A stretch of DNA of 64,000 nt from Perkinsus marinus ATCC 50983 (lineage: Eukaryota; Perkinsozoa; Perkinsida; Perkinsidae). Shown here piece by piece: positions 5,432 through 62,270 of the stretch. Numbering within the stretch: the stretch's first letter is position 1; each line of letters starts with the position of its first letter. The notes below the pieces were generated by a model, which saw only the letters and a list, made by a program, of their open reading frames with translations, searched no databases and had not been told where the DNA came from. The position numbers were made by a program, and so were the translations under genes. Where the stretch lies: assembly GCF_000006405.1 (NCBI RefSeq), contig NW_003215453.1, positions 35,426 to 99,425 of the forward strand, read 5' to 3'.

Positions 5432-5457
5432 GTTCGATCCCGGCACTTGATGTTTTT
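5432..5457 (+). repeat. tRNA 3'-half-like element (copy a)
   Basis: Intergenic, between the coiled-coil gene and the Fes1 gene. It has T-loop TTCGATC, strand CCGGC, then ACTTGAT, G and TTTTT, which is exactly seven bases, one discriminator and an oligo-T run as in a tRNA 3' end. Its tail closely matches the copy at 47516. No tRNA 5' half is visible upstream. Confidence 0.55.
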
Positions 5458-5657
5458 CCGTCCGGAAAATGACCACTTCTCAATATTAGACCTTCTTCTG
5501 TAAGGACTTAGATCGGCAGGATTTGTATATTCCAACGCTGTGATTATTATCGATGATTGCGTTTAGTGGTATCCATCTTGGAGAGGTTAATATGCATTAC
5601 TATCCCCTTTGAACACATACAAGATGTGTTGTTGTCCTCTACCATGTTGTGATGTAG

Positions 5658-6680
5658 TTGGTAGTTACCATGTCTTCATCATCATCATCATCATCACTAG
5701 GAGGAGTTGATTGGTCAGGTCTATTAGCATGGTCAACTAAGTATCATGATAATACTAACACTAGTACTATGCAGCCTATGTCTGATGAACGAAGAGAGTT
5801 CTTACAAAAGGCTATTGAGGAGACATTAGGTAAGGATAGTAGTAATAGTGTAAAAGCAGTGACTGTGTACTCAGGTACACAAGAGAATCCTAATGATCTT
5901 ATGAAGGAGTCTATTACTAAGTTGAATACTATTATTACATCAGCTGATAATGGTGATAAGACTAATCCAGAACTATGTGCTGAAGCTATCACTGCATTGT
6001 CGTTAATGGATAGATGTACAGACTTTCCTGATTGTCCTAGGAATTTAGAGATATTGGGTGGTACTCAGCCTCTATTATATCTTGCTACTACTACTATGTT
6101 GGATACTACTGTGAGGATTCAGGCTGCAGAGTTACTGGCATTGATGTTATCTAATAATACACAAGTACAGGAGGCGTGTTTTATCAAGTATGATGGGTTG
6201 AATAAACTACTTATTAGAATACAACACTTGATGATGTCATCACATAATGATGAAGAGATAGCACCATTATTGAGTGCATTAGGAGCATTAATACGTAACT
6301 ATCCTCAAGCTGAATCAGCTTTTATTACTACTAATGGTACTCAGTTGATAGCTCATCTACTTACTAATGACTATTCTATCAGAGTACAACAGAAGGTTGC
6401 TAGTCTGTATAGATACCTTTTGGCTGATGGTAGGGCTACTATAGTAGATTCTCATGATATTGCTGAGGCATTGATTCAATTGTATAAAGCTACTACTACT
6501 ATTGGTGATATACAATATTATGAGATATTGGCTGGTTTATCGTATGAACTAAGGGAATACCCTGGTATGGTAGATGCTGTTAAGGGCCGTATTAAGGTTA
6601 TACTAGAGAGTAGTAATAAACAGGATTATCAACCTGAGCTAACTACACTTATACAGACTGCCAAATATACCCCTAAGTAG
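5658..6680 (+). CDS. FES1: Fes1/HspBP1-like Hsp70 nucleotide exchange factor
   Basis: Predicted cytosolic nucleotide exchange factor that releases ADP from Hsp70 through an armadillo-type helical fold. After a Ser run (residues 5-13) the protein shows the family's opening, GLLAWSTKYHDNT followed by PMSDERREFLQKAIEE. It continues as repeated alpha-helical units (LSLMDRCTDFPDCPRNLEILGG, then IRIQAAELLALM and LLSALGALIRNYPQAE) that match Fes1/HspBP1 armadillo repeats; these are residues seen in the translation. Its 340 residues are in the usual range. It is one uninterrupted exon, unlike nearly every neighbour. The start could be Met1 or Met5. It is followed 72 bp later by the SLD5 gene on the same strand. 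Confidence 0.88.
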   Translation: MVVTMSSSSSSSSLGGVDWSGLLAWSTKYHDNTNTSTMQPMSDERREFLQKAIEETLGKDSSNSVKAVTVYSGTQENPNDLMKESITKLNTIITSADNGDKTNPELCAEAITALSLMDRCTDFPDCPRNLEILGGTQPLLYLATTTMLDTTVRIQAAELLALMLSNNTQVQEACFIKYDGLNKLLIRIQHLMMSSHNDEEIAPLLSALGALIRNYPQAESAFITTNGTQLIAHLLTNDYSIRVQQKVASLYRYLLADGRATIVDSHDIAEALIQLYKATTTIGDIQYYEILAGLSYELREYPGMVDAVKGRIKVILESSNKQDYQPELTTLIQTAKYTPK

Positions 6681-6752
6681 AAGTTATCAATGTACTACTT
6701 AGCAATGTTATGTTTATAGTAATGTCAATACTACTGATACTAGTCCATTATT

Positions 6753-7789
6753 ATGTCATCATCATCATCATCACAGTATAGTAGTCAGGATGGTGGGCAT
6801 AGTAAGGATGGTGATGGAGGAGTATTGTTAATTAGGATGAGTAATTATATCATGAATAGCATCATTATTATTGATGTTATTGGATAGGAAGAGCCTATAA
6901 ACAGGAACTAAGATGCCCTGAGATCCTACTATATGAGAATGAGCTTATTAGTGATGTAACTCAAGCTATGGATGCTATGGTAAGGAGTATAACTATTATC
7001 ATCATAACCAATTATGTTACAGCATGATAATATCGAAAGACCTGGCCAGAATGATGATGTGTTGTTGGAAGTTATGAGAATTGATGTAATACTATTAGTA
7101 TGGGGTAATAGCGATATCCATCTCCCTTAGTTAATGAGGACCCAATACATGGTAAAATCATATCTACGTCAGAGGCTATGGAAACTACAGAAGTATCCTC
7201 TATATTATCTTAAGTATTAGTAATATTGATAATAGTTATTATTACTGGTCGTCAGGTATCATCTAGACAGGCTCAGCCCATTAGAAAGGAAGTTCACTGA
7301 AGGGTAGTAGTCATTGGTTTAGTAAGTAGCTGATGATTAATATCAGTGTCACTAAAATGACAGAAGAACATATGAATGAATCATTCCTACATACAATGCC
7401 TGCTGGACCAGGTTTCGAGCCCTTTACTGTAATATCATTACTACTACTACTACTCTATCATACATAGGCTCACTATCATCATCATGATCATGGTCAGAGC
7501 CTTGATAACCCATGTGACACTATGGGTAATATGATACGTACACCTAATATCGATACTACGACTGTTGTGGCTAAGATAGTAGATGATTTATCAAGTGATG
7601 GTGGAATAGGGAATAGTATTAGGGTTTGGAATAAGTAATAGTGATAGTATACTGTATGATGAATATTGTTATTAGTATAGGGCAGCTAGAGATTACATAG
7701 ATATGCAGCTTATCAAAGGGAGGACCTATATAGTGGGTTATGATGTGGTGAAACGTTATGTAGAAGAAGGTAAAGTTGAACTGGTCTAA
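6753..7789 (+). CDS. SLD5: GINS complex subunit SLD5
   Basis: SLD5 is a subunit of GINS, which joins Cdc45 and MCM2-7 in the CMG replicative helicase. Exons read MSSSSSSSQYSSQDGG...LLIRM, then AYKQELRCPEILLYENELIS, then NIERPGQNDDVLLEVMRIDV, then LMRTQYMVKSYLRQRLWKLQ. Next come DRLSPLERKFTE, TEEHMNESFLHTMP, TPNIDTTTVVAKIVDD and the last exon RDYIDMQLIKGRTYIVGYDV...VELV, stopping at TAA 7787-7789. The helix around MRTQYMVKSYLRQRL, the RLSPLE motif and the C-terminal beta domain (GRTYIVGYDVV...GKVELV) match the SLD5/GINS4 family layout. Introns are about 40-50 nt. Boundaries of the TPNID region are uncertain, and an intron near 7409 contains a degenerate T-loop (CAGGTTTCGAGCCC). Confidence 0.85.
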
Positions 7790-7795
7790 AATTGC

Positions 7796-7996
7796 TAGTC
7801 CCATGGCCACTAATAATAATATTAAGAATAACATTGTTGTGTTACACTAGTAGCGTTAGTTTGATGGGTTATCCACGAGTTACCATATCAACTATGGTAG
7901 AATATGAAGAGACCGTAGACCTATCTCACAGGTTCCTACAATAATATGATCCGCTGAGGTTACCAACCATGCACTCAAAAGAGGGGTCGATTAGTA
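7796..7996. repeat. 201-bp direct repeat, left copy
   Basis: By visual comparison every base is the same as 8439-8639 (offset 643). It begins seven bases after the SLD5 stop codon. It contains the 5' part of the small gene described at 8507, cut off at 7996 where unrelated sequence starts. Confidence 0.95.
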
Positions 7997-8166
7997 CTAG
8001 GTCTTCGGTGCGAAGGGGCGGAGCTCGCTGAGCTTCTTATCAAGAATTCAGCGGGCTGTTATTGAAATTATTTTGGAAATTAGGCGACTAAAAGCAAAAA
8101 GTTGTCTTACATGTAACATCTGATTTAAAAACATCTATCATGGAGCAGCAACAGAATTCAGCGGGG

Positions 8167-8421
8167 TTAACCAGTAGCCATGCCCCGTAGTCGGTTCTCA
8201 AAGGCGCGTCTTTCTTCAATACCCTTCCCTTTTCCAACTCTATTCCATCTCGCCAGTCTCAAGTTTCGTTGATCGGCGACATCCAGAACAAAACTTGATA
8301 ATGAGCGGGCGCGGGATAGAGCAACGTAAGTGGACCCGGTACCGATTTCTTTTGATCCAAAGTCAATTCTGTACCAAGAGGGTACCACAAACAGGGTATC
8401 ATTCTGTCCCTCGTTGACTGC
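8167..8421 (-). pseudogene. PIF1/Helitron-type helicase C-terminal fragment
   Basis: The minus-strand reading contains NEGQNDTLFVVPSWYRIDFG and then GSTYVALSRARSLSSFVLD. The latter is the conserved C-terminal motif (TYVALSRxRS) of PIF1-family SF1B helicases, also found in Helitron Rep-Hel proteins. Only about 85 codons remain. A TGA lies just upstream in frame at about 8422, and the 201-bp repeat begins at 8439, so no ATPase motifs are present. It sits in a 442-bp segment (7997-8438) between two identical 201-bp repeats. It is read as a remnant of a mobile or captured helicase gene. Confidence 0.7.
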
Positions 8422-8438
8422 TCATCAGCGTAAAAATA

Positions 8439-8639
8439 TAGTCCCATGGCCACTAATAATAATATTAAGAATAACATTGTTGTGTTACACTAGTAGCGTT
8501 AGTTTGATGGGTTATCCACGAGTTACCATATCAACTATGGTAGAATATGAAGAGACCGTAGACCTATCTCACAGGTTCCTACAATAATATGATCCGCTGA
8601 GGTTACCAACCATGCACTCAAAAGAGGGGTCGATTAGTA
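8439..8639. repeat. 201-bp direct repeat, right copy
   Basis: Identical to 7796-7996. The right copy continues into sequence that completes the small reading frame at 8507-8743, so it probably represents the undisturbed arrangement. Confidence 0.95.
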
Positions 8640-8743
8640 TTGTTGGTTGTGATGCTATGTCCCTTATATACCTATCACTTTCTAAAGAGGGTTTGCAGCT
8701 ATATAATGAGTGTCGAAGGCTGATGCAGCAGTGCGATGTATGA
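8507..8743 (+). CDS. small protein, two exons, unidentified
   Basis: Not recognised. The reading MGYPRVTISTMVEYEETVDL continues in frame across a possible 27-nt intron (GTTCCTACAATAA...GCTGAG) into LPTMHSKEGSISIVGCDAMS and YLSLSKEGLQLYNECRRLMQ, stopping at TGA 8741-8743. About 70 residues. Most of exon 1 lies inside the right 201-bp repeat, and the left repeat carries a truncated copy. An upstream exon starting at the ATG near 8446 is possible. It may instead be the tail of a larger gene. Confidence 0.3.
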
Positions 8744-9119
8744 GGATATCATATGAATTGGCTTCGAATACTCCACTCCCTGCGTGTTGTTCATCATCAA
8801 GTGTGTAATCTATACATTCCTTTTCCTACTCAATTGTGTTACAATCATACTATCAGTATCTTAGATATGGATCACTAGCATCCACCTGTGAATAATAGCA
8901 ATATCAAATGATTGATGTGCTTCGAATCTAACGACCAGGGACCATTCATCACTTATTCTGTCTGAAGGTTCATCCGTGCATGATGTTCCATTCCTCGATC
9001 AATACGTGTTGCTTTTAAAATGTTGTCCATATCCAACGGAATTTCATATGCAGCATTGGGTGCTTATTAACACAACGAAGGATTTATTGTCGTCAATGAT
9101 ATGAATGCATTAAATGTAA
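8744..9119. other. no gene seen
   Basis: Short frames only, with frequent stops on both strands. It separates the duplicated region from the minus-strand gene that ends at 9120. No repeat or structured element was noticed. Confidence 0.5.
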
Positions 9120-11794
9120 CTATATGTTAAAGTCGCCAAGGCCGGCACTGCTTGTGCTTCGCCATAATATCCCTAATAAGGACCAAATGATCGTACTCGT
9201 ACGAACGGGTTCTTTCCTACCTCCTCCGATACCCATAATGATGATTACGATGAATAATATGATAACATCTCGCAATGCATAATGAGTCAGCCCTTTCCGC
9301 CCCTCCACCACATCATTGTCGTTATCACTATAGAATAGGTTATGATACATCAACCTTAATGAGTTTAAACGCCTGACCTTTCTTTCACTCTCATGCCAAA
9401 TGTTATCATACCCCAATACGCTATCGCTGGTAGCCAGATATAACAAATGACCGGTAGCAACAGGCCACGTACACATACCCAATCCTTAGCTGCGGTATAT
9501 AACATCTGATGATAATGTCGCATCAGATCACTCAGAATAGGGACACGGGCTTACCTCTGCACTACTAATATGATCAAATGATGAGGAAGTTGCTAGAAAA
9601 TCAATAAGTTTTGTAGGCATATATTTCTGTGTCCGAAGGGACAATAATGGCAGAAGAGTTTCGTGATACCACACTCGAACTTCATCCAATACGGTATGTA
9701 TACTGTAGTAGCGTAATAATGTAATGGATGATAATATTAGGATGATGACGGTGATGATATGTCGAATATGGCATGGGCGACTGAATGCTATGAGGGGTAC
9801 GACTAAGAGTACTGTTGGAACGGCCAATGACCTGTACATGGATAGAGGAGATGATAGGGTTTATAATGATAATTACCAATTGATTAGTATAAGTGGTAAT
9901 AACATAGTGAGGTATACGAGGGAGGTTGCCGATGATATACTAATAAAAGTATCTGATACGAATTATTGGTCAATTCTTCCTACACACAAATATCCCTACC
10001 CTTATCATTATACTGTACATGCCGATATATCATTGACATAAGTACTATCATTCCCAATGATAGTGCTAGACCATAATACCATACATGGTAGTGGTTACTA
10101 TCATCATCTAAATGCATAACTGAATCGAATACCGCAATACGATCCCATACTACCTAATTGGTCACCTCTACACTGTGAATCCTTGACACTATTGATGAGT
10201 AACAAGAATAGAGGAGAGCCAACTATTAAGTTGAAGGATAACGCCAGTGTTATAGACGTTAAGAATGATGGTAGAGACTAAGACGATGGGACACATTAGC
10301 ATAATACATTACTTACTTCTCATTACTCGTTTCCTTATAGGGAATGCTCTCACTATTAATGGTGCAATAATGGCAATGACAGGATATAGGAATATGCCAT
10401 TGGAGACGTGGGTAATTGGAGTATTATAAAAGTATACATTAAAACTATGATGAAGTTGTTGTAGCATTGATGATGAAGAATGTACGATACCTGTTCACAT
10501 ATTGATATACCCAACTTGATATACTATCTTGAATATTACCTTCAATTGACTTAGCCATATTCCACATATTAGTAGCAGCAAAGGTCGTTACAGTGAATGC
10601 TGGTATTTGTTGCGATAGGAATGGTGAATGTAATGAATGTACATTACCATTCCTTGCTTGCTTCATAACAGATTCCCATACATCAACCACTTGAATATGA
10701 CTAATACCACTCCCTAAAGGTATGATGATAATGGATGATGATGATGATGATAGTAATGGAATGTCTCACGTCTAGCCTCAATAATATAGGCATTGGGCCA
10801 GTCTTGATTAGGCTGCATACCGTTGATACCATCCACTTCTATTAACACACCATCTCCTCTGAACATAGTCAATGATAGTAGTATTATTACTATCATAGTC
10901 ACCCTCCTCACCTTTCCAAGGTAACATTAACAACTATACATTGCCGTATAATACCGATTGATGGTATATCATAATCATCATCATTACTATCATCAGGGTG
11001 ATCCCATCCTTGAGTGCTTGAACTGCTGACAACGAACCTCATATCCGAGTAGTTGTTGACATTATTACTATTCACGTAGCCATTTCCGAACACCGGAGGC
11101 ATATGATGCTGGCCTCAAGTTGGTGGAAAATAGTATTATAACGTCCTTAGACAGCCACTCGACTGTGGTAAAGAACCTCGTGAGGGTAGAACCCAAGGCC
11201 TCAGCATGCCTAGCATCGCCGGTTACCACCTGACCATCGGACCTGATTGTGTTGACGATAGTGACGCCTTACCACTACAACTGCTTCTCGACCATCACCG
11301 CGTTTGCTCGTGATCATTGAGAATGGTATGGATGAATCTAAGGTAGTGTGTATTGCGGCTGTTGATATCCATAGCAGTAGTAGTACTTGTGAATTGATAT
11401 GTCTTCACTCCATAAATACCGTTCTCATCATCCTCATTATTACTATACCTACGTAATGATTGTTCATACCTGATATGATACTATTCATGATGATGATGAT
11501 ACTAGTATGAGTAGTGTTATTATCATTACATTGTTAGATTATCCAAACCAAATGATGCTAACCCAGGGAGTAATGAATGCTCCTCAATCTCAGTAGGCCT
11601 GATGATAGTGATGATAATAATAAAGAAGGAGAAGAGGTATACCAATGATGATGATAATGATAATGTTACCTATCCAGTTGATGGAACATTGATAACCATA
11701 CCATACCAGACATCCATAATGCTAGAGATAGTAGCCACAGATGATGAGGGGATGATATAATAAATCGACCTATACTGTCTATCAACCTGGACAT
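9120..11794 (-). CDS. GAA1: GPI transamidase component GAA1
   Basis: GAA1 is the ER-membrane subunit of the complex that attaches GPI anchors to proteins. Exons in order: MSRLIDSIGRF with an N-terminal span (HHLWLLSLALWMSGMVWLSM) at 11794; RPTEIEEHSLLPGLASFGLD; YEQSLRRYSNNEDDENGIYG; KRGDGREAVVVV; then HAEALGSTLTRFFTTVEWLS followed by KDVIILFSTN. The luminal signature is next: GVLIEVDGINGMQPNQDWPN, then MLQQLHHSFNVYFYN and SNGIFLYPVIAIIAPLIV. These match the GAA1 order (RTY..EN, RGDGTEA, GLNGELPNLDL, FHQSFFFYLL). Several further membrane spans follow down to a TAG at 9120. One intron is only 34 nt (10524-10491). The last exon (9120-9400) is least certain. Confidence 0.85.
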
Positions 11795-11969
11795 AGTGGA
11801 AAACCTTGTTAATGATAATAATAATGTGGATGATGATTATAACGACGACGACAGTGGCCGCCAACACTCTCTCCCTCTACCACAGTCAAGAATGAACTAC
11901 ATCATATTGTCCTTTGAGTACTTAACCACTCAAAGCATCGTATTAAAGTAACTTTAGGAATTCTAATTG

Positions 11970-13980: not shown

Positions 13981-14084
13981 TGACAATAATAATAATCACT
14001 ATCACATATTAACCATCAGCATTCATACTATACAACACAATGAACAATAAGTAAACAACACTATCGTGATGATAGTAACTTCTA

Positions 14085-14952
14085 TTACTCTTGCTTAGTA
14101 TCATCAGTAGTCTTATTATCATCTATAGCTTTATCAGTAGTAGTGATATTATCACTCTTATCTTTCTCCTCCTCATCATTAGTAGTAGTAGGGTTTTCCA
14201 TGAAGAAGTACTTGAGTCTATAAGCATCGGAGCCATTAAGATAGTATCTAATAGCATATAATTATTCCTATACTTGACCACTACTATTACCGGGTCAAAC
14301 GCTTGGTCTTAATGAATCCCAGCTTCCTGTATAGTCCCAATGCAGCTGTATTAGTGATCTCAGCTTCAAGTACACACTGAGGGGGGATGGATAGGCAGGA
14401 GGAGGAGGAGGAGGCACAGGTTCGATCCCCGGTACTACCTCATCAGCACCCATCTGATGCATCCTTTCCAATGCTAATTGTACCATATGCGATGCAATAT
14501 GCTGACCACGATACGAGGCTTCTACTGCTAGCATTGCTATGTAACTATAGTATTAATATGATACTAGCCACTACTGTAACCATTAGTACCCTCTTTGAGT
14601 AGACTGCTGCTGCTGCTTTACATCATTATTAGTAGTATCATTCAACTTGGGATGATGCTCATCCAATTTACATACTACACATCCTATTATCTTATCCACG
14701 CACCGATCGATACACTACATACAATGATAATGATGATCAAGAAGGCTAATAGCCAGTTATTACCATGATGCATAGTTCTGGCCATTTATTGAGGAAGTAG
14801 CGGTAAGTGAATATTGAATAGGGCTCTGATAAATCCTTCTCTATAAGCTCATTCAATGCTTCTAGATCGTGCTCATCTCTATACGATATATACTCCAAAG
14901 TTGGTGGAGGAGTGGTATGAGCAGATTCAGAAACGACAGGAGCAGTGGACAT
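14085..14952 (-). CDS. NAA30: N-alpha-acetyltransferase NAA30 (NatC catalytic subunit)
   Basis: A GNAT-fold enzyme that acetylates N-terminal Met of nascent proteins from acetyl-CoA. Exon 1 contains YRDEHDLEALNELIEKDLSE followed by PYSIFTYRYFLNKWPELC, the family's peptide-binding signature. Exon 2 gives DKIIGCVVCKLDEHHP and a Gln run. Exon 3 gives GYIAMLAVEASYRGQHIASH, the acetyl-CoA binding motif (RGQHIA, family Q/RxxGxG/A), then MGADE. Exon 4 gives VLEAEITNTAALGLYRKLGF and exon 5 YYLNGSDAYRLKYFF with an acidic tail, stop TAA 14087-14085. All junctions keep frame. Start: Met at 14952 (MSTAPVV) or 15003. The intron between exons 3 and 4 holds a tRNA-like motif. Confidence 0.9.
14377..14438 (-). 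repeat. NAA30 intron with antisense tRNA-like motif
   Basis: A 62-nt intron fixed by frame on both sides (GADE before, VLEAEITN after). From the 5' splice site it reads GTAGTACCGGGGATCGAACC. On the plus strand this is TTCGATC, CCCGG, TACTACC: a T-loop, T-stem and 7-nt acceptor-like strand, but with no oligo-T. The rest is a CCT repeat leading to CAG. Confidence 0.8.
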
Positions 14953-26017: not shown

Positions 26018-27784
26018 CTACAATGATGATGGTCTTGGTATTTGTGTCATGGAAGATGGTAGGGGTATACGGAACATGTGATGTGATGATGATGAACCCT
26101 CATAGAAAGAGGAGGCGGATGGCAGTCTAGGAGTTGGTGCCACTCTAGGAGGTGGAGGGGTAGAGGCTGATAAGGATATTAGGAAATCACTCCAAAGGGT
26201 AGTTATCATCACCTCCTGCCATACTTTTACCGGGTAGTATAGTCCGTGGTGAGAAGTGATGATGGAGTGGTTGGAAAGGACGAGGGGCGAGACAAAAAGA
26301 TCGGGATTGGGCCGGAGCTGCTAAGACAGTGACAGGAGACAACCTTTCAATTCAAGTGAGGCACGGACTTATAGGCATTCCTGTAGACCCTCGGAGGCTG
26401 CCATTCCCTTGTTGTTGGCCACCACCAGTAGTGAACCCTCCTCCTCTTCCTCCTCCGGGTATGCTCGAGGCAAACGATGCAGTCCAATGCTGGGACTTAC
26501 TACCACCTCCTATCTTAAGATGCTCCAACCTACTCAATGGAGAGATCCCTACCTCCATCTCTAGATCTAGGAGTAATAACAACGTCCTGGGCTTTGCCTC
26601 GAGTCGATGCATTGAGGTTGAAGCCAGGAAGCAAGACCTGATCGTCCCAGGTTCTATCCCCGGTGAGGTTATTGTATCACTCTGCTTGATGTATCCCCAC
26701 TGTCCTTGATCCCTGTTTGGGGTGTGCCTACTGAACCACTTCATCAATGATACTTCCTCGCACTCACCTATCGCTGAGCCTACCCTACTGGTAACAAGAG
26801 GAGCACTAGATGGTGGTGGGGTTAATGCTTGCTCCTCCTGCTGTCCATGATGAGGAGGAGGATGATCCTGGGGTGATGACTCGGGTGATGCTACTACTAC
26901 TGCCCTGAGAATAGACAACAATAGAGGAGTGTTCCCCGACATTAGTTATACCCATCATCCGAGCCCAATGACCTCCGTCCTTCAGCTCTAGTCGGTCCAC
27001 GATACTCGATAATCCCACCACCATAGGATGCCCTCCTACTGTTACCACCAGGAGGCTTCCTCGATGCCTTCCTCCTGGATGGTGGATGAAACCCCATCCC
27101 ATGTTCGATAGGAGGAGTCCTCCGATTAGTCACAAAACCATTACCTTGTATACAGATAGGCTCCTTAAAGATAAGAGTAATCATATTACGTAGTGGTTCA
27201 TGATCATGATGATCAGCCTTCTTCGAACGTAGCATCCTAGAATGTATCTCATCCTCGAGTAGATCCTTAACTCGTTGTTGTAGAGCCTCTTTATCAGCCT
27301 CTAATTCGAGGATTCGGGTCGATAAACTGGTTAAATGAAATGTCAGACTTTCTAGTAGTGGCCTCACCCTTCTTGCATCTCGACAAACCTACTCTGTGTC
27401 TCCTCACATAGTGCTCGATAAGCCGCTTCCCCTTTAACGGTAGAGCGTATTCGGGCAAGATCGAAACCTGCTTCGCTCTCATCCGAAAGGTCGTGGGATC
27501 GAATCCTCCCTCACCACATCCCTCAACACATAACATAATCATCTCCCCGCCATCCACATACATCCGGTGGTCTACTTTGACTAGGATTTGAGCAAGTTAC
27601 GGTACATCCACTAACCTTTAATCTCCTCGAGTCGATATATCCTCACCCTCTCCCTCTCTATCACCTCCTCTTGAATCAAACAAGAATTGACCTCGGCAAC
27701 AAAGTGTGTGAGTAGATCCTGTGCCAATGCAGGACCTTGATCGTCGAGGGGCTTCATCGGCAAGCCCCAGAAGCGACAAGACAT
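26018..27784 (-). CDS. globular N-terminus plus coiled-coil protein, unidentified
   Basis: It starts MSCRFWGLPMKPLDDQGPAL at 27784. Exon 1 runs to RVRIYRLEEIK; exon 2 gives KVDHRMYVDGGEMIMLCVE; exon 3 gives FDLARIRSTVKGEAAYRALC. Exon 4 opens a coiled coil (STRILELEADKEALQQRVKD) and continues with TLIFKEPICIQGNGFVTN and a basic Arg/Ser/Gly-rich stretch. A further exon is Pro/Gln-rich (ESSPQDHPPPHHGQQEEQ), then MKWFSRHTPNRDQGQWGYIK and Gly-rich sequence. The 3' end is uncertain (frames end between 26018 and 26190). A compact domain ahead of a coiled coil recalls the XRCC4/SAS-6 layout, but no motif confirms it. Confidence 0.55.
27468..27514 (-). repeat. intron with antisense tRNA-like element
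   Basis: A 47-nt intron (GTGAGGGAGG...GAAGCAG) whose removal joins LCVEGC to FDLARIRST in frame. On the plus strand it reads CCGAAAGGTC, then GTGGG, ATCGAAT and CCTCC, then CTCACCA: a variable loop, T-arm and acceptor-like strand. It shares TTCGCTCT and CCGAAAGGTC with the copy at 58666-58721. Confidence 0.75.
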
Positions 27785-37591: not shown

Positions 37592-40576
37592 TCACGTTCT
37601 CCTTACTCCACCATCAAAACATCTCGATACAATTATATTATCTGGATAGGATTGAGCATCAGGAAAAAAAGACCCCTCTAACCCATTTCGAGGGTAGGGA
37701 GACACCAAGTCATGTGAAGCTCTCCTTCCCTGTATAGGTACCACAGGGATCATATACATCATACAAGGAGCTCGTTGAGGATGGAGTGGTACCGAACCTT
37801 CAGAATACATAGAGTAACTTCGTCTCATAGTAGGGGGTAGTGGGGCTATAGGTGCGAATGGAGTGGTATTAGAAAAAGGGCCTCCAGGTGGGATAAACCC
37901 AGGCAGAGGAGATGGGTAGTAATAGTACATACGAGATGATGGTAAGTCGATAGTCCCACTACCCGGAGTTGCAACAACATCCTCCTGGAAAATACAAGAA
38001 CCATTTCTGCTTGGTCCAGTGGTGCATGTATTTCTTTCAGATGGTGTCATCAATGAATATGGAGGGGAGCGCACAATCGGGCTCATAGAATCAGGGCCAG
38101 TGTAAACTGGTGGAGGACGTTCAAAACAACGGTTACTCTGTACTGTGTTCTTATCAGTAGCAGTGGTATGACCGGTATCTACATGCATGAATAACTAACT
38201 CTAATGCTACTGCTATGACCATTACCACCATTATTCTGATTCTTAATCGTAAGTTCGAGACACGGGGTTGTCTCACTCTTAGTGATATTCTTACCACCCC
38301 TGAAGGGATATGAATCCATCACTACGAAGTGAATTTATTTACCTGCGTCGACGTTTATGTATGGCATACATCTTCTTGCCTTCTAAGCCAATATCGGCAG
38401 AACCTGGCTGAATCGGCTTCTTCGAGTCATCTGCTTTTGGTGAATAGTCAACATCTTGGATGATTTCACTCCCGGAATGGGCGTATCGACATCTACGAAT
38501 GAATGGCGATATTCAGAGCTAACAATAGAAGCACTTACCTATTTCCTAGTTTGCAAAAGCCTTGCTTTGCAAAGTCGCACATCTTAGTGCGGAAAAACGC
38601 GTTGGACGATCTAACCTGTGTTGAAACAGTTCCAATGACAGCGATAAGTTTGTCCAGGATGAACGGAACAGCCCAGGAAAGCAGGTGATTGAAGGAAATT
38701 CAAAATCGACTCTGAAACTCGATGAGACAATCAAGCTACTCACGGAACTACTATAAGATGATACCCAAGGCGAGCGGACGACCAAGAGTCCCTAGATATT
38801 CAATATCCGCTGGATTTTACCATAAACCCGTAATGCATTATTCGATACACTTACTGTTTCCAAGTCGTGTGCATAAGGACACTGAGAGTCAGCGCAATGA
38901 CCAGTTTGAAGGAAAACTCGGCACATACGACACTTAGCTAGGTCCGGCTGACTGTTGAGCTCTTCAACACCTGATATCCAGAGCTCCTACATCAAAGTGC
39001 TATCATAACATATCTTACTGTGCGCATGCGTACAGTTATCACCACGATTGCAAAACCCATCTAAGTGGTATCTGAAGAAATTCAATACTATTCCACTCAT
39101 TAACTGTCGAGGATTCTCTCCCAAGTTGTATGCGGCATATCCTAAATCAACCGGTGAGAGGGGAGAGATGACTCCATGAGCGATGGACCATCTCGGCGAA
39201 GTGTCGGAGCCGCTCGTTACATGTCTAACGAACTTTGCTATATAAAACTCCATGGGTTCAGAGTATCTGTCGCGCTTTCCCCTACAGCGAGGGGTAGGTC
39301 TCCTGCCCAAATTCCAGGATCGGTACTATTCATGACACAAAATGTCTTATGTGCATATATGGCCAGGAAGGCACCGCATGGAGATTTGCATATCCTCTAG
39401 CGTTTATTTATTTTTCGATCGGTTCTTTCGTCGTCATCAAACTCTCCCTGATTCTGGAGATTCGTACGCACGCACTCTCGGAATGAGCCGAATTGCAAAT
39501 GACTCCGCGACTAATGACTTGTGAAACCGAATAACTATATCCATTTCTAACAGAGCTTCGGTAGTACTAAGTTGCCCAATACCCACACACTCACTTGCAT
39601 AACTTCGTCTTGTAAAATTGACTCAAGTATCTGGTGTAGATAGAGCTGTGACCACTGGTCTTAGAGGTGTCCTCAGATCCTCTACCAGAGTCGGTAATAG
39701 TCGAATCACTCGCCTAAGCATAAATCAGTGATAGTGATGATGAAGGGATGGGCTTACCTGTCGTCTAGTAGCTACATATGAGGATGACGAAGGCATGATT
39801 ATCGAGGAAAAGATAAAACTACTACTATCATCAATATTGACCATAGAGGAACTACTACTATCATCAATATTGACCATAGAGGAACTACTACTATCATCAA
39901 TATTGACCATAGAGGAACTACTACTATCATCAATATTGACCATAGAGGAACTACTACTATCATCAATATTGACCATAGAGGAACTACTACTATCATCAAT
40001 ATTGACCATAGAGGAACTACTACTATCATCAATATTGACCATAGAGGAACTACTACTATCATCAATATTGACCATAGAGGAACTACTACTATCATCAATA
40101 TTGACCATAGAGGAACTACTACTATCATCAATATTGACCATAGAGGAACTACTACTATCATCAATATTGACCATAGAGGAACTACTACTATCATCAATAT
40201 TGACCATAGAAGAACTACTACTATCATCAATATTGACCATAGAGGAACTACTACTATCATCAATATTGACCATAGAGGAACTACTACTATCATCAATATT
40301 GACCATAGAGGAACTACTACTATCATCAATATTGACCATAGAGGAACTACTACTATCATCAATATTGACCATAGAGGAACTACTACTATCATCAATATTG
40401 ACCATAGAGGAACTACTACTATCATCAATATTGACCATAGAGGAACTACTACTATCATCAATATTGACCATAGAGGAACTACTACTAATGAATGTACGCG
40501 TTGGTATGCGTAGGATGCTCATGAGGCCTCGCGAGACCTCACGAGGCTTGTTGCCTCTTCTGTGCGGCACGCACAC
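37592..40576 (-). CDS. multi-CCCH zinc-finger protein with Ser/Asp repeat N-terminus
   Basis: The N-terminal exon (from Met at 40576 or an internal Met) holds 20 copies of SSSSSMVNIDD, ending PSSSSYVATRRQ at a canonical GTAAG site. Next is ASDSTITDSGRGSEDTSKTS, with YTRYLSQFYKTKLC opening a first, atypical finger. Later exons give three clear CCCH fingers: HLDGFCNRGDNCTHAHS, CRMCRVFLQTGHCADSQCPY followed by AHD, and MCDFAKQGFCKLGNRCRYAH, matching C-x7-8-C-x5-C-x3-H. The family binds RNA. The final exon is Pro/Ser-rich (PLPGFIPPGGPFSNTTPFAP) and ends at 37592. The assignment of the repeat exon to this gene rests on strand, splice site and spacing. Confidence 0.68.
39827..40486 (-). repeat. 33-bp coding minisatellite, 20 copies
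   Basis: Twenty head-to-tail 33-bp units, essentially identical; one unit near 40207 has AGAAGAAC in place of AGAGGAAC. On the coding (minus) strand each unit encodes SSSSSMVNIDD. Because 33 is a multiple of three, several other frames stay open too. There are no unique spacers, so it is not CRISPR-like. Confidence 0.95.
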
Positions 40577-47453: not shown

Positions 47454-48036
47454 CTATGACCATGTTGTATGTTGATGGTACACTGATTCAATGGTGTTGA
47501 GTTATTGCAGAAGGCGCAGGTTCGATCCCGGCACCTGACGTTTCTTAAAATAAGTTTTATTATTCCACTACAATGTACGTTCCCGGAGTGTCGACATCCT
47601 ATCAGCTACCGAGGTTTAAGGCCAAGTTCATTGGGAACAACTCCCAGGATGGGTAAACTCTGATAACCACGCTCAACCAAGTTCAATACGCACAGCACGC
47701 GTAGTCCTCTGTTAGTCGTAATGTTAGCGACAATATGCGAATTGGATTGGATCTTGGGGAAATTGCATATCCATTCACTAGTCGTTCTTTGGGAGTACCT
47801 TATTTGTATCCTTCTTGCGACGATCTATGGTACTGAAATATATTGAGTATCGATTCTGATAAAGCTTTCTTGAGAAGAAGGTTACTCACTTCCCTGAGGT
47901 GGCACTAGCATTGCTCACTACCAATATCATCGAAATCCGTATGTCATTCGCAGTGTCCACCGGCAGCGGCAATTATGTTTCCCATTATTTCGCAGGAGTA
48001 AACGAAATCGATTTATGGTTTTTCTAATTCTTCAAT
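47454..48036. other. intergenic with a tRNA-like element
   Basis: At 47508-47540 the plus strand reads AAGGCGCAGG, TTCGATC, CCGGC, ACCTGAC, G, TTTCTT: T-arm, seven-base strand, discriminator and T-rich end, nearly the same as 5432-5457. No 5' tRNA half precedes it. Nothing else was recognised. Confidence 0.55.
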
Positions 48037-52968: not shown

Positions 52969-53000
<32 letters not shown>

Positions 53001-55262: not shown

Positions 55263-57696
55263 TCATCTGTTCCTCCTGCTTAGCCCTCTGTTGCCTCTTC
55301 CTTCGTTCCCTCCTTCCTCGCGTTCTCGCATTAGCTCGATTGCTACCATTGGTGCCTCCCCTGCTCTCTGCTGATTGCAAATTTACCGGACTAATTACAA
55401 CCAGTCCCATCACCCAAACCAACAGCCGTTTCCTACCTGTTATTGTTCCCCTGTCGCCTTTGACGTTTCCTCGCTTGAACTGGCTTCCGATCTTCCCACG
55501 ACTTTCTACCGTTGCGGGATGCGCCCTCAGGAGGTAGCTAAGACACGAAAAACAATCGATGCCGGAATCGAACCGACCACCTTTCCATTCCCAGCACTCA
55601 CGTTATTATCCCTCACATGTGCACCTCCTTCCCTCATAACTAAGCCACTTGCTTTGGCGACACTCGACTTGCTCGGCGAGGTTCCTCCCTTTGCAGTCGG
55701 CATTTCATTCTGCAGAGATTTTTTCGCGCGCCACAAAATTCATAACCACTTGAAATTGTCAATAATCCCACATATTCGACATTCGACCAACCCTAGCATA
55801 TTTATACATCTGAATGATTCGCCGAAAATAATACCACAGAAGGGAAGAACGTCGCCCGACCATTCATCGAACCCGCGCCCGAAACCACCTCACCTCATCA
55901 TGAGAATTAGTCCGGCCTCTCTCCGCCACACCAGATACCCCATCTCTGGCTCGTCTCCACGTAAGGGACCGCTCAGCCGCCAAATAGTCCTGAGCATAGA
56001 ATCTTGAAATCTTGCATTTCCTCAACGCCTACCTGTGCCGTGAATCTACTACTAGGCGGTATCGGCTTATTGGAGCGGATCAGCTGCATGACCAGGTGGT
56101 TGCGCAAACGTCTAAAGGAAACCTTGTGATGTAGCGGAGGAGTGGTATGAGATCAGTACGCATGCACATACCTCTTATACAGGCCTCCCGGATGCCTAAC
56201 ACCAGTCCCCGAGGCAAAGGCCAGTCCGCCACCACCAACTGCCGAGGCGACTCGTGCACCTCTTCTCCTACCCCTCACCGAACCCTCGCCACCAGCCACA
56301 CTGCCTGAACGAACGATTACACACGAGTAAAAACGACCCGAGAGATATCAGCATAATGGATTCGCATTTGCTTTCTGACCACAACGGATCAAATCGCTAT
56401 TGAATCCACCCCAGAACGAAGACTCCTTAATCTCAGCATCTAAACCAATCCGAATCAAATTCCCAAACGAGTACTGAATGATGAAGGGAATAACAGAAAG
56501 TTGGACGAAATAGAAATCTTCATAAATTTCGGCGAAGTTCGATTCCGCTCTCCCCCAATATTCAAGTTTAATTACCTTTCGATCCGCCACCAGCAACACT
56601 CCACCCTCCGGGGCGACGTCTTCGATTCTGCTGTCGCATTTTATCCACCAAAGATTGTATGCTCACTCGGTGCAAATGGGCCGCGCATCGGCGCTCTGTT
56701 TGATTGAGGCCATATCTAATCCCGCACAGGTTCAATCTCGGCACATCACATTTTCGAATTACAATTTCCCAGTTCCCGGCGGTCTCCACTCCTTATTCCC
56801 ACTTGCACAATCCGTCCACGCAGTCGGCTTACCTCCACCACATCCGTCATCATCAGCTCCTCGAGGGCCACCGATCACCCGTGGGAATGGCTGAGCACGT
56901 AACATTCACGGATACCACTCGCGAGGTCCCAGGTTCGACCCACCACATGGAAAGTTTCTTTAGCCCCTTTAAAGCGTCTCGGCGGCACCACCATCCGATG
57001 ACCACCTCCACCCTTCTCCTTCTTCATGTCCAACACCTTCCAAAGATACGACTATTTTTGAAGTCTATCCAGCTGGAATTAATAGTTTCCTCACTACTAC
57101 ACGTATTACAACAAAAACTTCCCAAAATTTCATCAACATGCACCACAGTTGACCATGCGCCTATTTTCCAACAATGCGCGGGTATCTTTGCGCAGCCGGA
57201 AGATTCTCCATCCCATTACCTCTTTCCAATACTGCGTGCACTCCGCAGCATCCAACTTAGTAATCGCCGGCCGTACCAATCCATTCACAGTCAGTAACGG
57301 GCCCGAATTTCTAAACCAAACAACACACCTATTCCTCATCGCCACAACCGCGCTCGCCCATCTAATCGATTATCCAAAATATCGTCTACCATCTTACTGC
57401 AAATCCATAGCGGCAAAGTCTCTTTCCTTTTTACTCCGCAACCTTATGTATGCTTCCCAGTTATTACCACCTCTATCTGATAAAATAATAAAATACCACT
57501 ACCGGGGATCGAACCCGAGACCTTCCGCATAATAACCAAACTCACCTCCTATCGGAGGGCGAATGTCAACATGCTGCGTCACTGTACTATGCCCTGCCCA
57601 TTGCCGCAACTGCAGCAAACTAACCGGTGGTAATCCAGTTAAATGAAGCAACTGCGAAAAGCGCGCGCGCCCGATCGATCGATTGATTACATTCAT
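55263..57696 (-). CDS. unidentified gene with four or more tRNA-like introns
   Basis: No family recognised. Minus-strand exons: LLHLTGLPPVSLLQLRQWAG near 57650; WEAYIRLRSKKERDFAAMDL (from 57476); LDAAECTQYWKE near 57240; VVPPRRFKGAKETF and FPRVIGGPRGADDDG near 56990-56850; FGNLIRIGLDAEIKESSFWG near 56440; VSFRRLRNHLVMQLIRSNKP then DYLAAERSLTWRRARDGVSG (56120-55895); and an Arg/Ala-rich end near 55530-55270. Introns at 57477-57545, 55538-55601, about 56870-56930, 56735 and 55815-55895 all carry T-loop-like motifs, and 55990-56032 carries the other element. Two genes rather than one is possible. Confidence 0.45.
55538..55601 (-). repeat. intron with sense tRNA 3'-half-like element
   Basis: A 64-nt GTGAGTGCTG...CTTAG intron. 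Reading 5' to 3': AAAGGTG, GTCGG, TTCGATT, CCGGC, ATCGATT, G, TTTTT. The five-pair T-stem is complete (one G-T), followed by exactly seven bases, one base and T5. The T-run also serves as the pyrimidine tract before the 3' splice site. Confidence 0.75.
55990..56032 (-). repeat. 43-nt intron carrying GAGGAAATGCAAGATT element
   Basis: GTAGGCGTTGAGGAAATGCA, then AGATTTCAAGATTCTATGCTCAG. Removal joins PIPPSSRFTAQ to DYLAAERSL in frame. It has the same length (43 nt) and core as the channel intron at 46731-46773. Confidence 0.8.
57477..57545 (-). repeat. intron with sense tRNA 3'-half-like element
   Basis: A 69-nt GTGAGTTTGG...TATCAG intron that joins DIRPPIG to RGGNNWEAY. It contains GCGGAAGGTC, TCGGG, TTCGATC, CCCGG, TAGTGGT, A, TTTT: variable loop, perfect five-pair T-stem (one G-T), seven bases, discriminator and T-run. 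The upstream TTTGG and GCGGA can pair over four positions around TTATTAT, an anticodon-arm-like hairpin. Confidence 0.8.
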
Positions 57697-57777
57697 TCAC
57701 TCACCGAAAGTTTCCTTATAACCGATGGCACTTCCTGTTGAATCTTCTCATTCTAAAAATACACAAAAAATAAAATT

Positions 57778-60224
57778 TCAGCTCAGAAAAATTCCAGACA
57801 GCCTCACTGTATCAGCATAACTAAATATATCATCCTGGGGTTTTGGCGCCACCCCCGCGCCGTACTGTGTATCCGATTCACTCTCCGACCCCGAAGAAGA
57901 CGGCGACGATGATGACGAGGATGAGGATGAGGAAGAAGAACTGGAGCTATCGGACGACGACGAGGAGGAGGAGGAAGAGGAGGAAGATTCATCGTCCCCA
58001 CTCGAGGAGATTGATGTTGATGATGAACTGACGCGTGCAGATAATGTCAAATTAGAAGAGGACGAACTTTCGGCGGACGGCACTGCAGCTGAAACGAAAA
58101 GACATATGAATATTCATATCCTCACATTTTTATGAATGATAAGTTTTATAGATCGCCCGACGTCATGCCGTATGGTTCCTAAAGCGGTTTTATTTTGGGA
58201 TTTTTTCATGGTAGAAGATGCGAAACAGTTGAGAATCGGTCCGATAAAATACAGTACGCGACATGTAAGACGCGCAATCCTTATCAGATAGTTTTTCCTA
58301 CATCACATTTAGAGCTAATTCCTGTATCAAACATCTCAGATATACATCGATACTGAAATCGAAGCCGCGCATTCAAACGCTAAAAAAATTTCAACCCCCT
58401 GCGCGCATATACCTCCATAATTCTCTGATGCCGTTATCGATGGATCATCATAATCGACCTTCCGCCTCTTCCGATCATCTTCCTCCCGCACCTCCTTCCC
58501 GGGTGGCGGTACCGTACTAGTGCTACCCTCGGATCTAAAAACACCCCTGCCGGGGATCGAACCAGGGACCTCCGCTCACCTCGGTTCTTCATCATCAACT
58601 ATTGTCCACTTCGTCGGATCGAATCCCTCTGCATACGCGTGATGATTGTCGATCTTATTCACGTTCTTCGCTCTGACAACCGAAAGGTCCCCGGATCGAT
58701 CCCATCACCCCGCATTTTTACCTATAATATGTTTCCCGCAAAAACCTAAATTTCCCCCCAGTGATTACTCTCAGACGCCGCCCGTCCGAGCGGATCTCCC
58801 AATCTTTTGGCCATCTCCCTAAAAATTAATTGATAATGGAAAAGTTGCATAAAATCCTAAAGACGAATGAAAAACGACTTGGATATTAACCATTGCGCAC
58901 AAATTTTTCACCCGAAATTTTTGGAATTTTCTCTACATGCTTCAAAACGGACAGGAAATCCAAAAACGTTATAAATTTTGCATAAACGGTAAGTCTGTAG
59001 AAAAGCATATCTAATGTAAATACAAAGTAGACTAATTTACCATCCAATTGCCTCTTCGCCGTCCGGGCTTCTTCCTCCGTATTATATTCCACAAAACAGT
59101 ATGCAAGATTCACACCTGACACACGGCGACGCAGGTTCGATCCCTGCACCTGTTATTTTTAGTCACCTGTTCGTGGATGGTTTGGAATCGCAATATAATC
59201 AACTGTAACAGCAAAACCAAACTTCTCACCAGAAGCCACACTCTCTGAAACAAACACTCATGCAAACTCGTTTTTCCATTCTCCAATTTTCAATATTCAA
59301 ACTCCGACTTCTACTGAAAAGGCGATGCAGGAGTCGATATAGCGAACGCCCCCCAGGCAGTGATCACTCTATAGGACGCAATAAGCAACTACTGATATGC
59401 GTGAGTAGAGCGAAAGTGATATCCATCGATCGGATTAGCGATAGGACCACAAGACCTTTCGTTGTCGCCGTCGTCTATGAGGATATTAATTCATCCCTCT
59501 TCATCTTGCAAATCTTGCATTTCCTCAACGCCATGTTATTACTGATCATTTCCCTGTCAACATTATATGGTAAATTTTCCATATAAATAGTCCGTCTCTC
59601 GAAATCGGCGACTTGTCCATCGATTATGATATTGCCCAGCATCGGATAAAGCCGGAAATTACGACTCACATACCTTTTCCCCCTGAATAATGGAAAATCT
59701 TCGCCGTGCGCAAGATACTTTTTCCTACCCCTTCTCACTCCATACCAATACCTCACTATTATCAATAGCAGCGAGCAACTCCGTTTCAGTGCATCTGGAA
59801 AAATATAACTATTTTTCCGAAATTATTATTGTCATTTACCCTAATTTTCGCAGTTCACCCCAACTCATAATATCATCAATCGCGACCCACGGTTGGCCGT
59901 CCCCCTGTATATCGCGCTGCGCTAATTCCTCCGTAATATAACGATCTCGACGGAGATTCGCATCCGAGAACTGAACAACAATAGCAACAATTGGACCTGA
60001 TCCGTATCTTGCATGCATGAACCTAAGATACTCACATAGAATTCCACTTGCTCTTGTATTTTTTCCAATCTGTTCATCTGTGCTCCTATAGAAGTAGCAA
60101 CACTCCTCGACCGACTCGCCCGATGGTGATGCCTTCGACTATGACGACCCGTCGAAGGTATCTTTAGGTCCCCTCTACCAAGATTCAAACGAGGTTCATT
60201 CCTGTCCACTTGCATCACCACCAA
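57778..60224 (-). CDS. La-related protein, LARP7 type (La motif plus RRM)
   Basis: An RNA-binding protein. An N-terminal exon from Met at 60224 ends MNRLEKIQEQVEFY. It joins to the La motif FSDANLRRDRYITEELAQRD and WVAIDDIMSWGELRKL. An RRM follows: RRTIYMENLPYNVDREM (RNP2), VDYIAIPNHPRTG, and NLAYCFVEYNTEEEARTAKR (RNP1). Later exons give EMAKRLGDPLGRAASESNHW, IDNHHAYAEGFDPTKWTIVD, EGSTSTVPPPGKEVREEDDR then KRRKVDYDD, and, after an intron of about 330 nt, a Ser-rich C-terminus ending at 57778. The La plus RRM order with a conserved IYMENLP matches LARP7, which protects pol III RNAs such as 7SK or telomerase RNA. The downstream RRM2-like domain was not identified. Confidence 0.72.
58535..58579 (-). 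repeat. LARP7-like gene intron, sense tRNA-like element
   Basis: 45 nt: GTGAGCGGAGGTC, CCTGG, TTCGATC, CCCGG, CAGGGGT, G, TTTTTAG. The whole intron is essentially the tRNA-like piece, with the 5' splice site just before the variable loop and the oligo-T run directly forming the 3' splice site. Exon reading continues from VDDEEP to SEGSTSTVPPP. Confidence 0.85.
58666..58721 (-). repeat. LARP7-like gene intron, antisense tRNA-like element
   Basis: 56 nt GTAAAAATGC...GCGAAG. On the plus strand: CCGAAAGGTC, CCCGG, ATCGATC, CCATC, ACCCCGC, A, TTTTT. It is opposite in orientation to the neighbouring intron at 58535-58579, so the oligo-T run is an A-run at the 5' splice site. It shares TTCGCTCT and CCGAAAGGTC with 27468-27514. 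Confidence 0.75.
59116..59166 (-). repeat. LARP7-like gene intron, antisense tRNA-like element
   Basis: 51 nt GTGACTAAAAATAAC...TGTCAG. It joins IPNHPRTG to VNLAYCFVEY inside the RRM, so its limits are firm. On the plus strand: GCAGG, TTCGATC, CCTGC (perfect stem), ACCTGTT, A, TTTTT. Confidence 0.85.
59505..59542 (-). repeat. probable LARP7-like gene intron with GAGGAAATGCAAGATT element
   Basis: GTAATAACATGGCGTTGAGG, then AAATGCAAGATTTGCAAG, about 38 nt, just after NLPYNVDREM in the RRM. The 3' limit is not fixed because the next exon was not resolved. Confidence 0.55.
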
Positions 60225-61170
60225 ACAACCGAATAAACATACGATCCAGAATCAAATTAACTACAGAAAAAATAAAATGAAGCCAACACGAGTGACAAGG
60301 AACCTCTGTTAAACCCTTCAACATCCGAATACCATCCATAGCCCAACATGCGAGATGATTCAAACCAGCTTGGAACTATGTAATAGAGAAAGATATCTCC
60401 TTACGCACTGTGAAGATTTTTCAAACAACGATCCCCGTACATATTTGCATGTCCACTCATCACTGTGGACATACAAATCCTCAGCAGAAATCCTAATGAA
60501 ACCGGGCCCCAACACGTGGAAATGCCACTCCTGGGATTCGAACCAGGGACGGTCGATATAAAAAGCCACACACAGACGCTACCCCGATCACACCAAACAA
60601 TGCAGTGGTAAACAGACCGGACCGAACGGAGATGAGATGAATGAAACTAGCCCCTCATGAGAGCTGTTTTCTGATAGCGTGTATACTTGATAAAGAAGTA
60701 AAGCGAAATTTTCACCCGAGAAAAACATTCAAAATTTTTCCACCACCCCTCTCCCATAAAACCTGTCAACTACAACTCACATCTGCTGATCAGAAACGAT
60801 ACATGAAAACCGTCAAATCAATTTCCACACTTGCGCGTGCGTGCAAATAATTATCCAGAATCACTCATAAAAATGGTCTAATTTTGCCCAGTAATAATTC
60901 CTCCAACATTCCAAGAGGAAGGCCCATCACACTGTCGCTTCCCCCTTCAATTTTCCTCACAAACTGAGGAAATGCAAGATCGAGCAAGATTGCAAGATTC
61001 GCCCCATCCACTCACTGGTCCCATAACATCATCTATACAGAAACTCCCGGCACAACGATACACCAAACTGTGTGGGTCAGCGACTATCGCGTCGATGAAA
61101 TGCTCGCGGATGGGATTGAACCTGTGCGGGTTTTCACACCACGGGTGTCAAAGCGATAATGACGAAATTA
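60225..61170 (-). other. possible 5' exons or a small gene; two intron elements
   Basis: An exon-like minus-strand reading (ISAEDLYVHSDEWTCKYVRG, 60490-60360) follows a possible intron containing CTGG, TTCGAAT, CCCAG, GAGTGGC, A, TTT at 60525-60557. At 60963-60999 the plus strand carries CTGAGGAAATGCAAGAT with GCAAGATTGCAAGATTC. At about 61109-61130 there is a further T-loop-like motif (minus strand ACAGGTTCAATCCC). No domain recognised. Confidence 0.3.
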
Positions 61171-62270
61171 GAGTCTGGGGATCTTCCTCAACTTTATCGT
61201 TGCCGAGAACTTCTGAATAGAAATTTGATTGTCGAGCAAGTGTAATCCAAAAGAACTTGAAGAAACCTTTGGAAAGCAAACAATACTAAATTCAGGTCTC
61301 AGATGCGAAAGTATTCCCAGAAATTGTCGCTCCTGAACGAGTGAGAAAGTATACACACCGTCATTTACGATGATAGTTTTGAGAGTATTTGAAACCCCCT
61401 GTTTGTACACTCTTATCCCGAATGGTGTGTAATCTCTCATAATGTAAACCAAACATTATCACCATGTGATCGCCTTATGGCATCCAACTGCTCTTGTGCC
61501 ATTCAGACAATCCACCACTACAATAGCTGTCCACGTTATAACTCCCTTACCCTGAGCGTAGTCCTTTATAAACCTACAACGACGACAACTATACTCCGAA
61601 TAGGAAGCGCCGACACTACGCTCACGTATACTTCAGAACTTTATAGGGAACGACTAATTTTCCCACCAAACTTCCATCATCAAAGAAACAAAATAATTTT
61701 GTTGTCGTTGAGTCCCGACCCACATCATCGTAATAGTCACCTTCTGGCTTCCTCTGAGCCTTCCGGTTTCTCACGCAATTCATCTTCACAAACTGCCACC
61801 TGTAAAACGGCAGAATCGAACCCGGGACCTTCCACTGGTCAATCATGAACAATTACAGACTCAACTACCCACTCTATGTCTTCTTCCTCACCTGATCCCC
61901 ACATAACAAAACGACATCCAAACCCTTCAACTGACGCTCCAGCACATCAGCCTTGCCGCAAGCGACCGCAACACATGTTTCCTAAGACAACAAATCCTAT
62001 GTATCCTCCAGTCGTATCTCCCGACCTCAGGTGAATCTTTCCGAAACGCTTTCTCATCAATATCGGGATCCATAGTCGCTATGTATCGAGAGCCACTCAT
62101 ATCCAATACCTTCCGCCTGCCCAGTGATTGACTCCCTGATAACATCAACGCACTGTGAAGATTTTGTGTCGAAATTCTGCATTATTATTACCCAACACTA
62201 CATCATTATATTTCAACCACTCCTTCAACCTAGTCGATGCTTCCGGCAGAGGAAACCTCAAAGCCGACAT
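61171..62270 (-). CDS. unidentified gene, several exons
   Basis: Not recognised. A likely start is MSALRFPLPEASTRLKEWLK at 62270. Further exons read RRKVLDMSGSRYIATMDPDI then DEKAFRKDSPE, TCVAVACGKADVLERQLKGL, EEEDIEWVVES joined across the 57-nt intron 61800-61856 to VAVCEDELREKPEGSEEA, and a C-terminal exon DYTPFGIRVYKQGVSNTLKT, then QERQFLGILSHLRPEFSIVC, ending near 61171. The intron with the tRNA-like piece is well supported by frame; other joints are tentative. Confidence 0.45.
61800..61856 (-). repeat. intron with sense tRNA-like element
   Basis: 57 nt GTAATTGTTC...TTTTACAG. It contains AGTGGAAGGTC, CCGGG, TTCGATT, CTGCC, GTTTTACAG. The T-stem is degenerate and the acceptor strand is missing: the T-run follows the T-arm almost directly. 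Removal keeps DIEWVVES and VAVCEDE in frame. Confidence 0.7.

Follow-up and report, generated by a model that had tools for sequence, protein, structure and literature searches.

Short introns of Perkinsus marinus can be filled almost entirely by a repeat that resembles the 3' end of a transfer RNA (tRNA), as judged from a 64-kb stretch of the genome of strain ATCC 50983 (the window) and from the 54.46-Mb, 347-contig genome that contains it and in which all genome-wide searches were done. The repeat is dispersed through both window and genome, and its core reads AGGTC-NNN-GGTTCGATCCC-N11-TTTT. Alignments with related proteins show that some copies occupy nearly all of an apparent short GT-AG intron in a conserved gene, in either orientation. 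That decayed tRNA-derived repeats became introns by recruiting splice sites is, in our judgement, the better-founded part of the interpretation and rather probable. Evenly poised is the fuller proposal, in which insertions of tRNA-derived DNA, in either orientation, would time and again have given rise de novo to spliceosomal introns of Perkinsus, at least four of them in the LARP7 gene of the window; the terminator of the repeat would serve as the pyrimidine tract when in sense and contribute to the 5' splice site when in antisense. The origin of introns is an open question, and the findings suggest that repeats resembling tRNA ends are a source of new introns in this genus of oyster parasites; if true, a tRNA-related source would widen a picture in which a survey of introners ties its families mainly to DNA transposons.

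LARP7 (57397..60077, minus strand) offers a small-scale test case: of its four element introns, two are sense and two antisense. The gene was identified by its La domain and RRM (PF05383, 3.1e-11; PF00076, 1.6e-8), and the Perkinsus olseni protein P0007, which matches it in tblastn blocks from 60077 to 57397, spans all four junctions; the LARP7 protein of the window is 88 % identical to that of P. olseni. Breaks in the P0007 alignment indicate at least 10 introns, among which those without an element measure 45, 46 and 65 nucleotides (nt) when sized by eye, and no second copy of the gene was found. The first element intron (57477..57545, minus strand, 69 nt, sense) contains AGGTC at about 57523 followed by the run of thymines (T-run) and ends in ATCAG; once spliced, it yields RPPIG/DRGGNNWEAY, gapless against RPPQGDRGGNNWEAY of P0007, and retention introduces an in-frame stop. 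The match to the family model lies at 57490-57525 within this intron, and the copy belongs to the model. The second (58535..58579, minus strand, 45 nt, sense) consists of GTGAGCGG, a stretch like a tRNA 3' end and TTTTTAG; its junction has a one-residue gap alongside (DDEEPRSEGS versus DDEG-KSEGS in P0007), and retention leads to a stop. The third (58673..58721, minus strand, 49 nt, antisense) has GTAAAAA, the reversed T-run, at its 5' splice site, and splicing gives ETYYR/AKNVNKIDNHH, gapless against DTYYKAKNVNKIDNHH of P0007, with a frameshift and a stop upon retention; the initial annotation of the window had placed its limits at 58666-58721, seven bases away from the boundary that P0007 dictates. 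The fourth (59116..59166, minus strand, 51 nt, antisense) is bordered by CAGGTG at each junction, and its spliced product, IPNHPRT/GVNLAYCFVEY, is gapless against IPNHPRTGVNLGYCFVEY of P0007 as well as against LARP7 of solved structure, with TAA read when the intron is retained. LARP7-family proteins bind the U-rich 3' ends of transcripts made by RNA polymerase III (pol III); that such a gene should host four of these introns is possibly a coincidence.

Beyond LARP7, a gene for an NAA30-like N-acetyltransferase contains a 62-nt intron with an antisense element that has no T-run (14377..14438, minus strand). Its spliced product, MGADE/CVLEAEITN, is gapless against NAA30 of solved structure (6yga_A, E 1.1e-15), and the 62 nt shift the frame if retained; the family model, to which this copy does not belong, matches 14413-14434 on the plus strand (E 5.7e-4). 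The initial annotation listed eight element introns with limits set by the reading frame. Five of these are fixed by protein alignment and each causes a frameshift or a stop when retained, and the remaining three (27468, 55538 and 61800) have open frames on both sides of the splice. Two of the five are sense (57477, 58535) and three antisense (14377, 58673, 59116); with 27468, classed by eye, four of the eight are antisense, an orientation that the initial annotation had not remarked upon.

The tRNA-3'-half-like motif is real, as was originally proposed, and lies far above chance. Matching with a 36-base weight matrix, whose 65 training copies include four from the window (a true tRNA, L019, was omitted, as were repeats and any copy close to the end of a locus), gave 16 window matches at a score of at least 0 and none in 10 shuffles, and GGTTCRANYCC with at most one mismatch occurred 26 times in the window versus 8.4 in shuffles; a plain scan for TTCGANN with at least four of five stem pairs was weakly above chance (14 versus approximately 6.3). 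Genome-wide, GGTTCGATCCC was found 924 times versus 5 for its reversed control, AGGTCNNNGGTTCGATCCC 279 times versus 0, and the GTC form with TTTT 151 times versus 0. The exact tRNA geometry that had been described also holds, as GGTTCGATCCC-N11-TTTT, which preserves tRNA spacing, occurred 323 times versus 0 for the reversed control, and among 30 loci picked solely by AGGTCNNNGGTTCGATCCC the T-run began at offset 11 in 11, with no other offset from 0 to 40 reached by more than three. The usual form of the element is a unit of roughly 36-40 bases that runs from a variable loop through a B box and seven acceptor bases to a discriminator base and the T-run. Copies are clustered within the window, 12 of the 16 matrix matches falling between 55500 and 61900. 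Not counting the tRNAs targeted, 142 kb that were unselected for the motif (30 tRNA loci plus one 50-kb run, haplotype pairs included) gave 17 matrix matches, four of which fall on further true tRNAs; rough scaling from this small sample would put the genome total at several thousand decayed copies. As a separate observation, five loci (L039, L051, L055, L064 and L074) carry a longer repeat of approximately 310 bp that starts with ACTAGG, ends near CTCCGC and has the core inside; in L039 and L074 the inner part is absent, which resembles a deletion and not an empty site.

Candidate element introns exist at further loci, and support from conserved proteins has been obtained for the four in LARP7, for the NAA30-like gene and for a RCHY1-like gene (L059), where a 56-nt element intron shifts the frame and a one-residue gap lies shortly past the junction. 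A DHX15-like gene (57 nt, tested in L082, of which L086 is a near-identical partner) and a beta'-COP-like gene (L097, 51 nt) show no gap across the junction when spliced. More broadly, CAG within 13 bases past the T-run was found 92 times genome-wide versus 26 for the scrambled GAC (one place being counted twice in the 26), and among the 30 loci, which were unselected for AG or CAG, C/T-AG lay within 24 bases in 9 of the 11 with a T-run and 7 of the 19 without. When sense copies were examined for a splice that joins open frames, 28 of 96 (29 %) passed versus 8.4 % of 1723 control positions, a figure that is inflated because the sample includes loci chosen for CAG. Several results weigh against so wide a role in splicing. 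In the DHX15-like and beta'-COP-like genes, the element introns have lengths divisible by three and stay open when retained, so that an in-frame coding insert is possible there; 16 of the 28 sense open-frame introns are also multiples of three and 9 of the 28 are open when retained, and some of them are therefore probably false. Antisense copies showed no clear excess in the open-frame test (12 of 96 versus 7.8 %), and the strict antisense 5' splice-site pattern past the T-run occurred 8 times genome-wide versus 9, although this pattern misses introns with GT inside the acceptor part, such as 14377 and 27468.

If the repeats did become introns, insertion into an exon would have been tolerated because element and flank together provide the splice signals. 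In the sense orientation, the T-run would act as the pyrimidine tract, an AG in the downstream flank as the 3' splice site, and a GT just before AGGTC as the 5' splice site, of which GTGAGCGG-AGGTC at 58579 is an example. In the antisense orientation, the 5' GT would derive from the reversed T-run, as GTAAAA (58721) or GTGACTAAAA (59166), or else from a GT within the acceptor part (14438), and the AG would come from the flank past AGGTC. One small piece might therefore be used both ways, and a T-run with a nearby GT and AG may suffice for an intron.

Whether such introns arose de novo or by insertion into pre-existing ones depends on what else they contain. The element accounts for approximately 36 of the 45-69 nt, and the stretch from GT to AGGTC varies; in the four LARP7 introns, removal of the 36-base element leaves a remainder of approximately 9-33 nt. 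Since so little other sequence is left in these introns, de novo gain is probably the better account. The principal alternative is that older introns came first, that repeats landed inside them and that the original intron sequence was then deleted, which we regard as unlikely while still giving it more weight than the other alternatives considered below. It would accommodate the 14 of 30 AGGTC loci that have no C/T-AG within 24 bases, i.e., copies without intron signals, as well as the want of target-site duplication at the splice junctions, where 37 hand-picked introns with boundaries set partly by eye had 1.95 matching bases versus 1.93 in permutations (P 0.45); CAGGTG at both ends of 59116-59166 is a single case. 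However, the element introns of LARP7 are as short as ordinary ones, which measure 44-65 nt by eye in LARP7 and L082, and their remainder is smaller than an ordinary intron, which argues against insertion into an older one; the preference of T-runs for CAG over GAC also counts against that history. Besides the missing duplications, de novo gain has against it that no empty site was seen, all seven copies in six haplotype or paralogue pairs being present in both members, and that the most similar copies proved to be haplotype, paralogue or longer-repeat pairs. With a median pairwise identity of 64 % among 100 aligned copies (drawn from 116) and closest pairs of that kind, nothing shows present activity or recent insertion.

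It is likely that the element descends from a tRNA-like sequence whose 5' half has been lost, or has decayed, in most copies, given the bases at positions 72 and 73, the terminator spacing and the A-box-like motifs at 34-37 bases. The 65 copies, which had been picked by core and T-run, have C or T at position 72 in 62 cases, A or G at position 73 in 62 and T at position +5 in 54. A tRNA 3' end followed by a pol III terminator is the order that the element reproduces, and by this layout its T-run is a putative pol III terminator. An A-box-like motif (score of at least 5) lies 34-37 bases before position 44 in 9 of 129 non-tRNA copies, versus about 1 expected from a background mean of 0.31 per distance over distances 14-100, 34-37 included; in true tRNAs of this genome such a motif stands at 36-37 bases, and at the first threshold of 6 the best motifs were at 35-36 bases in 5 of 17 copies. 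The initial annotation had found no 5' tRNA half near any copy, which the nine copies show to have been put too strongly. In L110 and L077 the motif lies within the apparent intron.

There are also findings that do not sit easily with tRNA descent. The A-box threshold of 5 was chosen after a first look at 6, and the motifs of L109 and of the window copy at 61830 lie in a supposed exon and may be chance occurrences. Rfam recognized no tRNA in seven of the nine copies bearing an A-box-like motif (those of the window, L109, L110, L001, L042, L076 and L077; L053 and L075 were left out). Complements to the acceptor strand were not above chance upstream (5 full complements versus 8.0 in permutations), and most copies are without a tRNA 5' half. 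Moreover, the pairs of the T-stem vary independently of each other, which is unexpected for copies recently taken from real tRNAs. Two earlier leads were dropped, namely a tRNA-Ala-like source string, GCATGCGGAAGGTC, which had no matches, and an 'A box' read by eye upstream of the 57477 intron, which proved to be coding exon of LARP7. At five places (L001 minus 3013, L042 plus 1777, L076 plus 2772, L077 minus 4539 and L110 plus 102, each numbered along the strand given), decayed tRNA-like copies of full length were noted, whose A-box-like motif stands at the spacing of a tRNA.

A second alternative is that the resemblance to a tRNA 3' end does not reflect descent and is due to a DNA motif, the B box, maintained as a binding site for a factor such as TFIIIC or for the splicing machinery. 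A conserved T-stem can be discarded, contrary to the claim that pairing is often kept, since 76.6 % of stem cells in the 100 aligned copies were paired versus 76.2 % after shuffling; the variable pairs 49-65 and 51-63 were at chance in two sets of copies, and pairs 52-62 and 53-61 lie within the core that was used to find copies. Such loss of pairing is in keeping with a binding motif, as are a core (GGTTCGATCC) that is steadier than its flanks and the fact that five of seven window introns fold no better than shuffles. When the seven were folded singly, z-scores ranged from -1.80 to 0.94, and only 59116 and 55538 folded better than about 94 % of shuffles, with the other five unremarkable. The steadiness of the core, however, stems in part from how copies were found, a binding motif leaves positions 72-73, the exact spacing of the T-run and the A-box-like motifs at 34-37 bases unexplained, and antisense copies in introns argue against a splicing signal; we therefore hold this explanation to be improbable. 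Pairing at the shuffled level was among the outcomes that the initial annotation had listed as refuting its proposal; in our reading, it marks the copies as decayed DNA repeats free of constraint at the RNA level and does not make the introns spurious. Column linkage was seen in 74 copies at 69-71 and 65-66, both in the 3' part, and was at most weak across the core between 5' and 3' flanks, as if the two flanks had been exchanged or had changed independently; for this set, 80 of 91 strings were used (seven exact repeats and four rows of the L055 type being omitted by eye), from which six more of the L055 type were then removed.

Reverse splicing of a true introner, which would then spread in the form of intron RNA, would account for whole-intron likeness between unrelated loci, but is very improbable and disfavoured by the occurrence of both orientations within introns, verified antisense ones included, by copies without intron signals and by the variable stretch between GT and AGGTC.

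Among known systems, introners have been linked mainly to DNA transposons (Gozashti et al. 2022, PMC9860276), and the main text of that paper contains no occurrence of tRNA, SINE or Perkinsus. The parallels with the Perkinsus element are, from the text of that study, that introns resembling one another occur at many unrelated loci, that splice sites are part element and part flank, that the methods allow for insertion in the opposite orientation, and that some families have neither duplications nor inverted repeats; in contrast, the Perkinsus core is tRNA-like and gain of its introns is a probable reading. The introner elements of Amoebophrya are also repeated introns of an alveolate parasite, and are described in the accessible text as carrying inverted repeats (8-20 nt) and direct repeats (3-5 nt), with splice sites that are for the most part non-canonical (PMC7789003), whereas the element introns of Perkinsus are GT-AG and direct repeats at their junctions are not above chance. 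A paper on the spliced leader of Perkinsozoa (PMC9399869) is, in its accessible text, concerned with other subject matter. Among the papers listed by a literature search, which was made without bioRxiv and most subscription journals, none reported tRNA-derived introns and, the Amoebophrya paper apart, none dealt with introners in Perkinsus.

Two further kinds of sequence invite comparison. Short interspersed nuclear elements (SINEs) derived from tRNAs have a tRNA-like B box and high copy number, and the Perkinsus family shares both the box and the many copies. It differs from them in that an A-box-like motif is present in just 9 of 129 copies, the T-run comes directly past the acceptor bases and no duplication was found at the introns. 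Pseudogenes of tRNAs and 3' tRNA fragments keep the tRNA order of 3' half, discriminator and T-run, as does the element, but here the outer T-stem pairs are at chance, the copies occupy at least hundreds of places and part of them are introns. The initial description of an introner-like or SINE-derived family stands as far as a dispersed tRNA-like family is concerned, some members of which make up nearly whole introns; a SINE in the usual sense is not supported.

The three remaining introns of the window are candidates on the minus strand. A 64-nt one with a sense element (55538..55601) connects frames that are open for 46 and 34 codons; it lies past the point where P0007 ends and may belong to the 3' portion of LARP7. 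Another of 57 nt, also sense (61800..61856), joins frames of 30 and 20 codons, with a stop if retained; the model match is at 61813-61832 (E 5.3e-4, copy outside the model), and a PDB search returned no relative. The third (27468..27514, 47 nt, element antisense by eye) joins, in phase 1, two open frames 27 and 33 codons long, had an insignificant match only in a PDB search, and its element falls under the matrix and model thresholds. Four other element copies, all belonging to the model, are at 5420..5458 (plus strand, matrix score 23.5, model match 5428-5457, no intron shown), 47508..47546 (plus, 35.4, model E 1.4e-7), 26639..26677 (plus, 25.2, model E 7.8e-6) and 60517..60555 (minus, 19.2, model E 2.8e-5). 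The window has no tRNA genes by ARAGORN or by Rfam, and ARAGORN detected no tRNA cloverleaf in L031, L033, L037, L046, L058, L061 and L063.

As to the source of the DNA, the protein encoded at 5676-6680 has 95 % identity to a P. marinus protein over 91 % of its length, and 69 % identity to P. olseni over 65 % of its length. Six pairs of contigs (L001/L002, L003/L005, L004/L006, L015/L016, L017/L018 and L082/L086) share 91-98 % identity across 1-3 kb; by this similarity they are haplotypes or recent duplications kept separate in the assembly. Lastly, the window contains a tandem repeat at 39795-40576 that is open in three frames, one of which reads as units of SSSSSMVNIDD.

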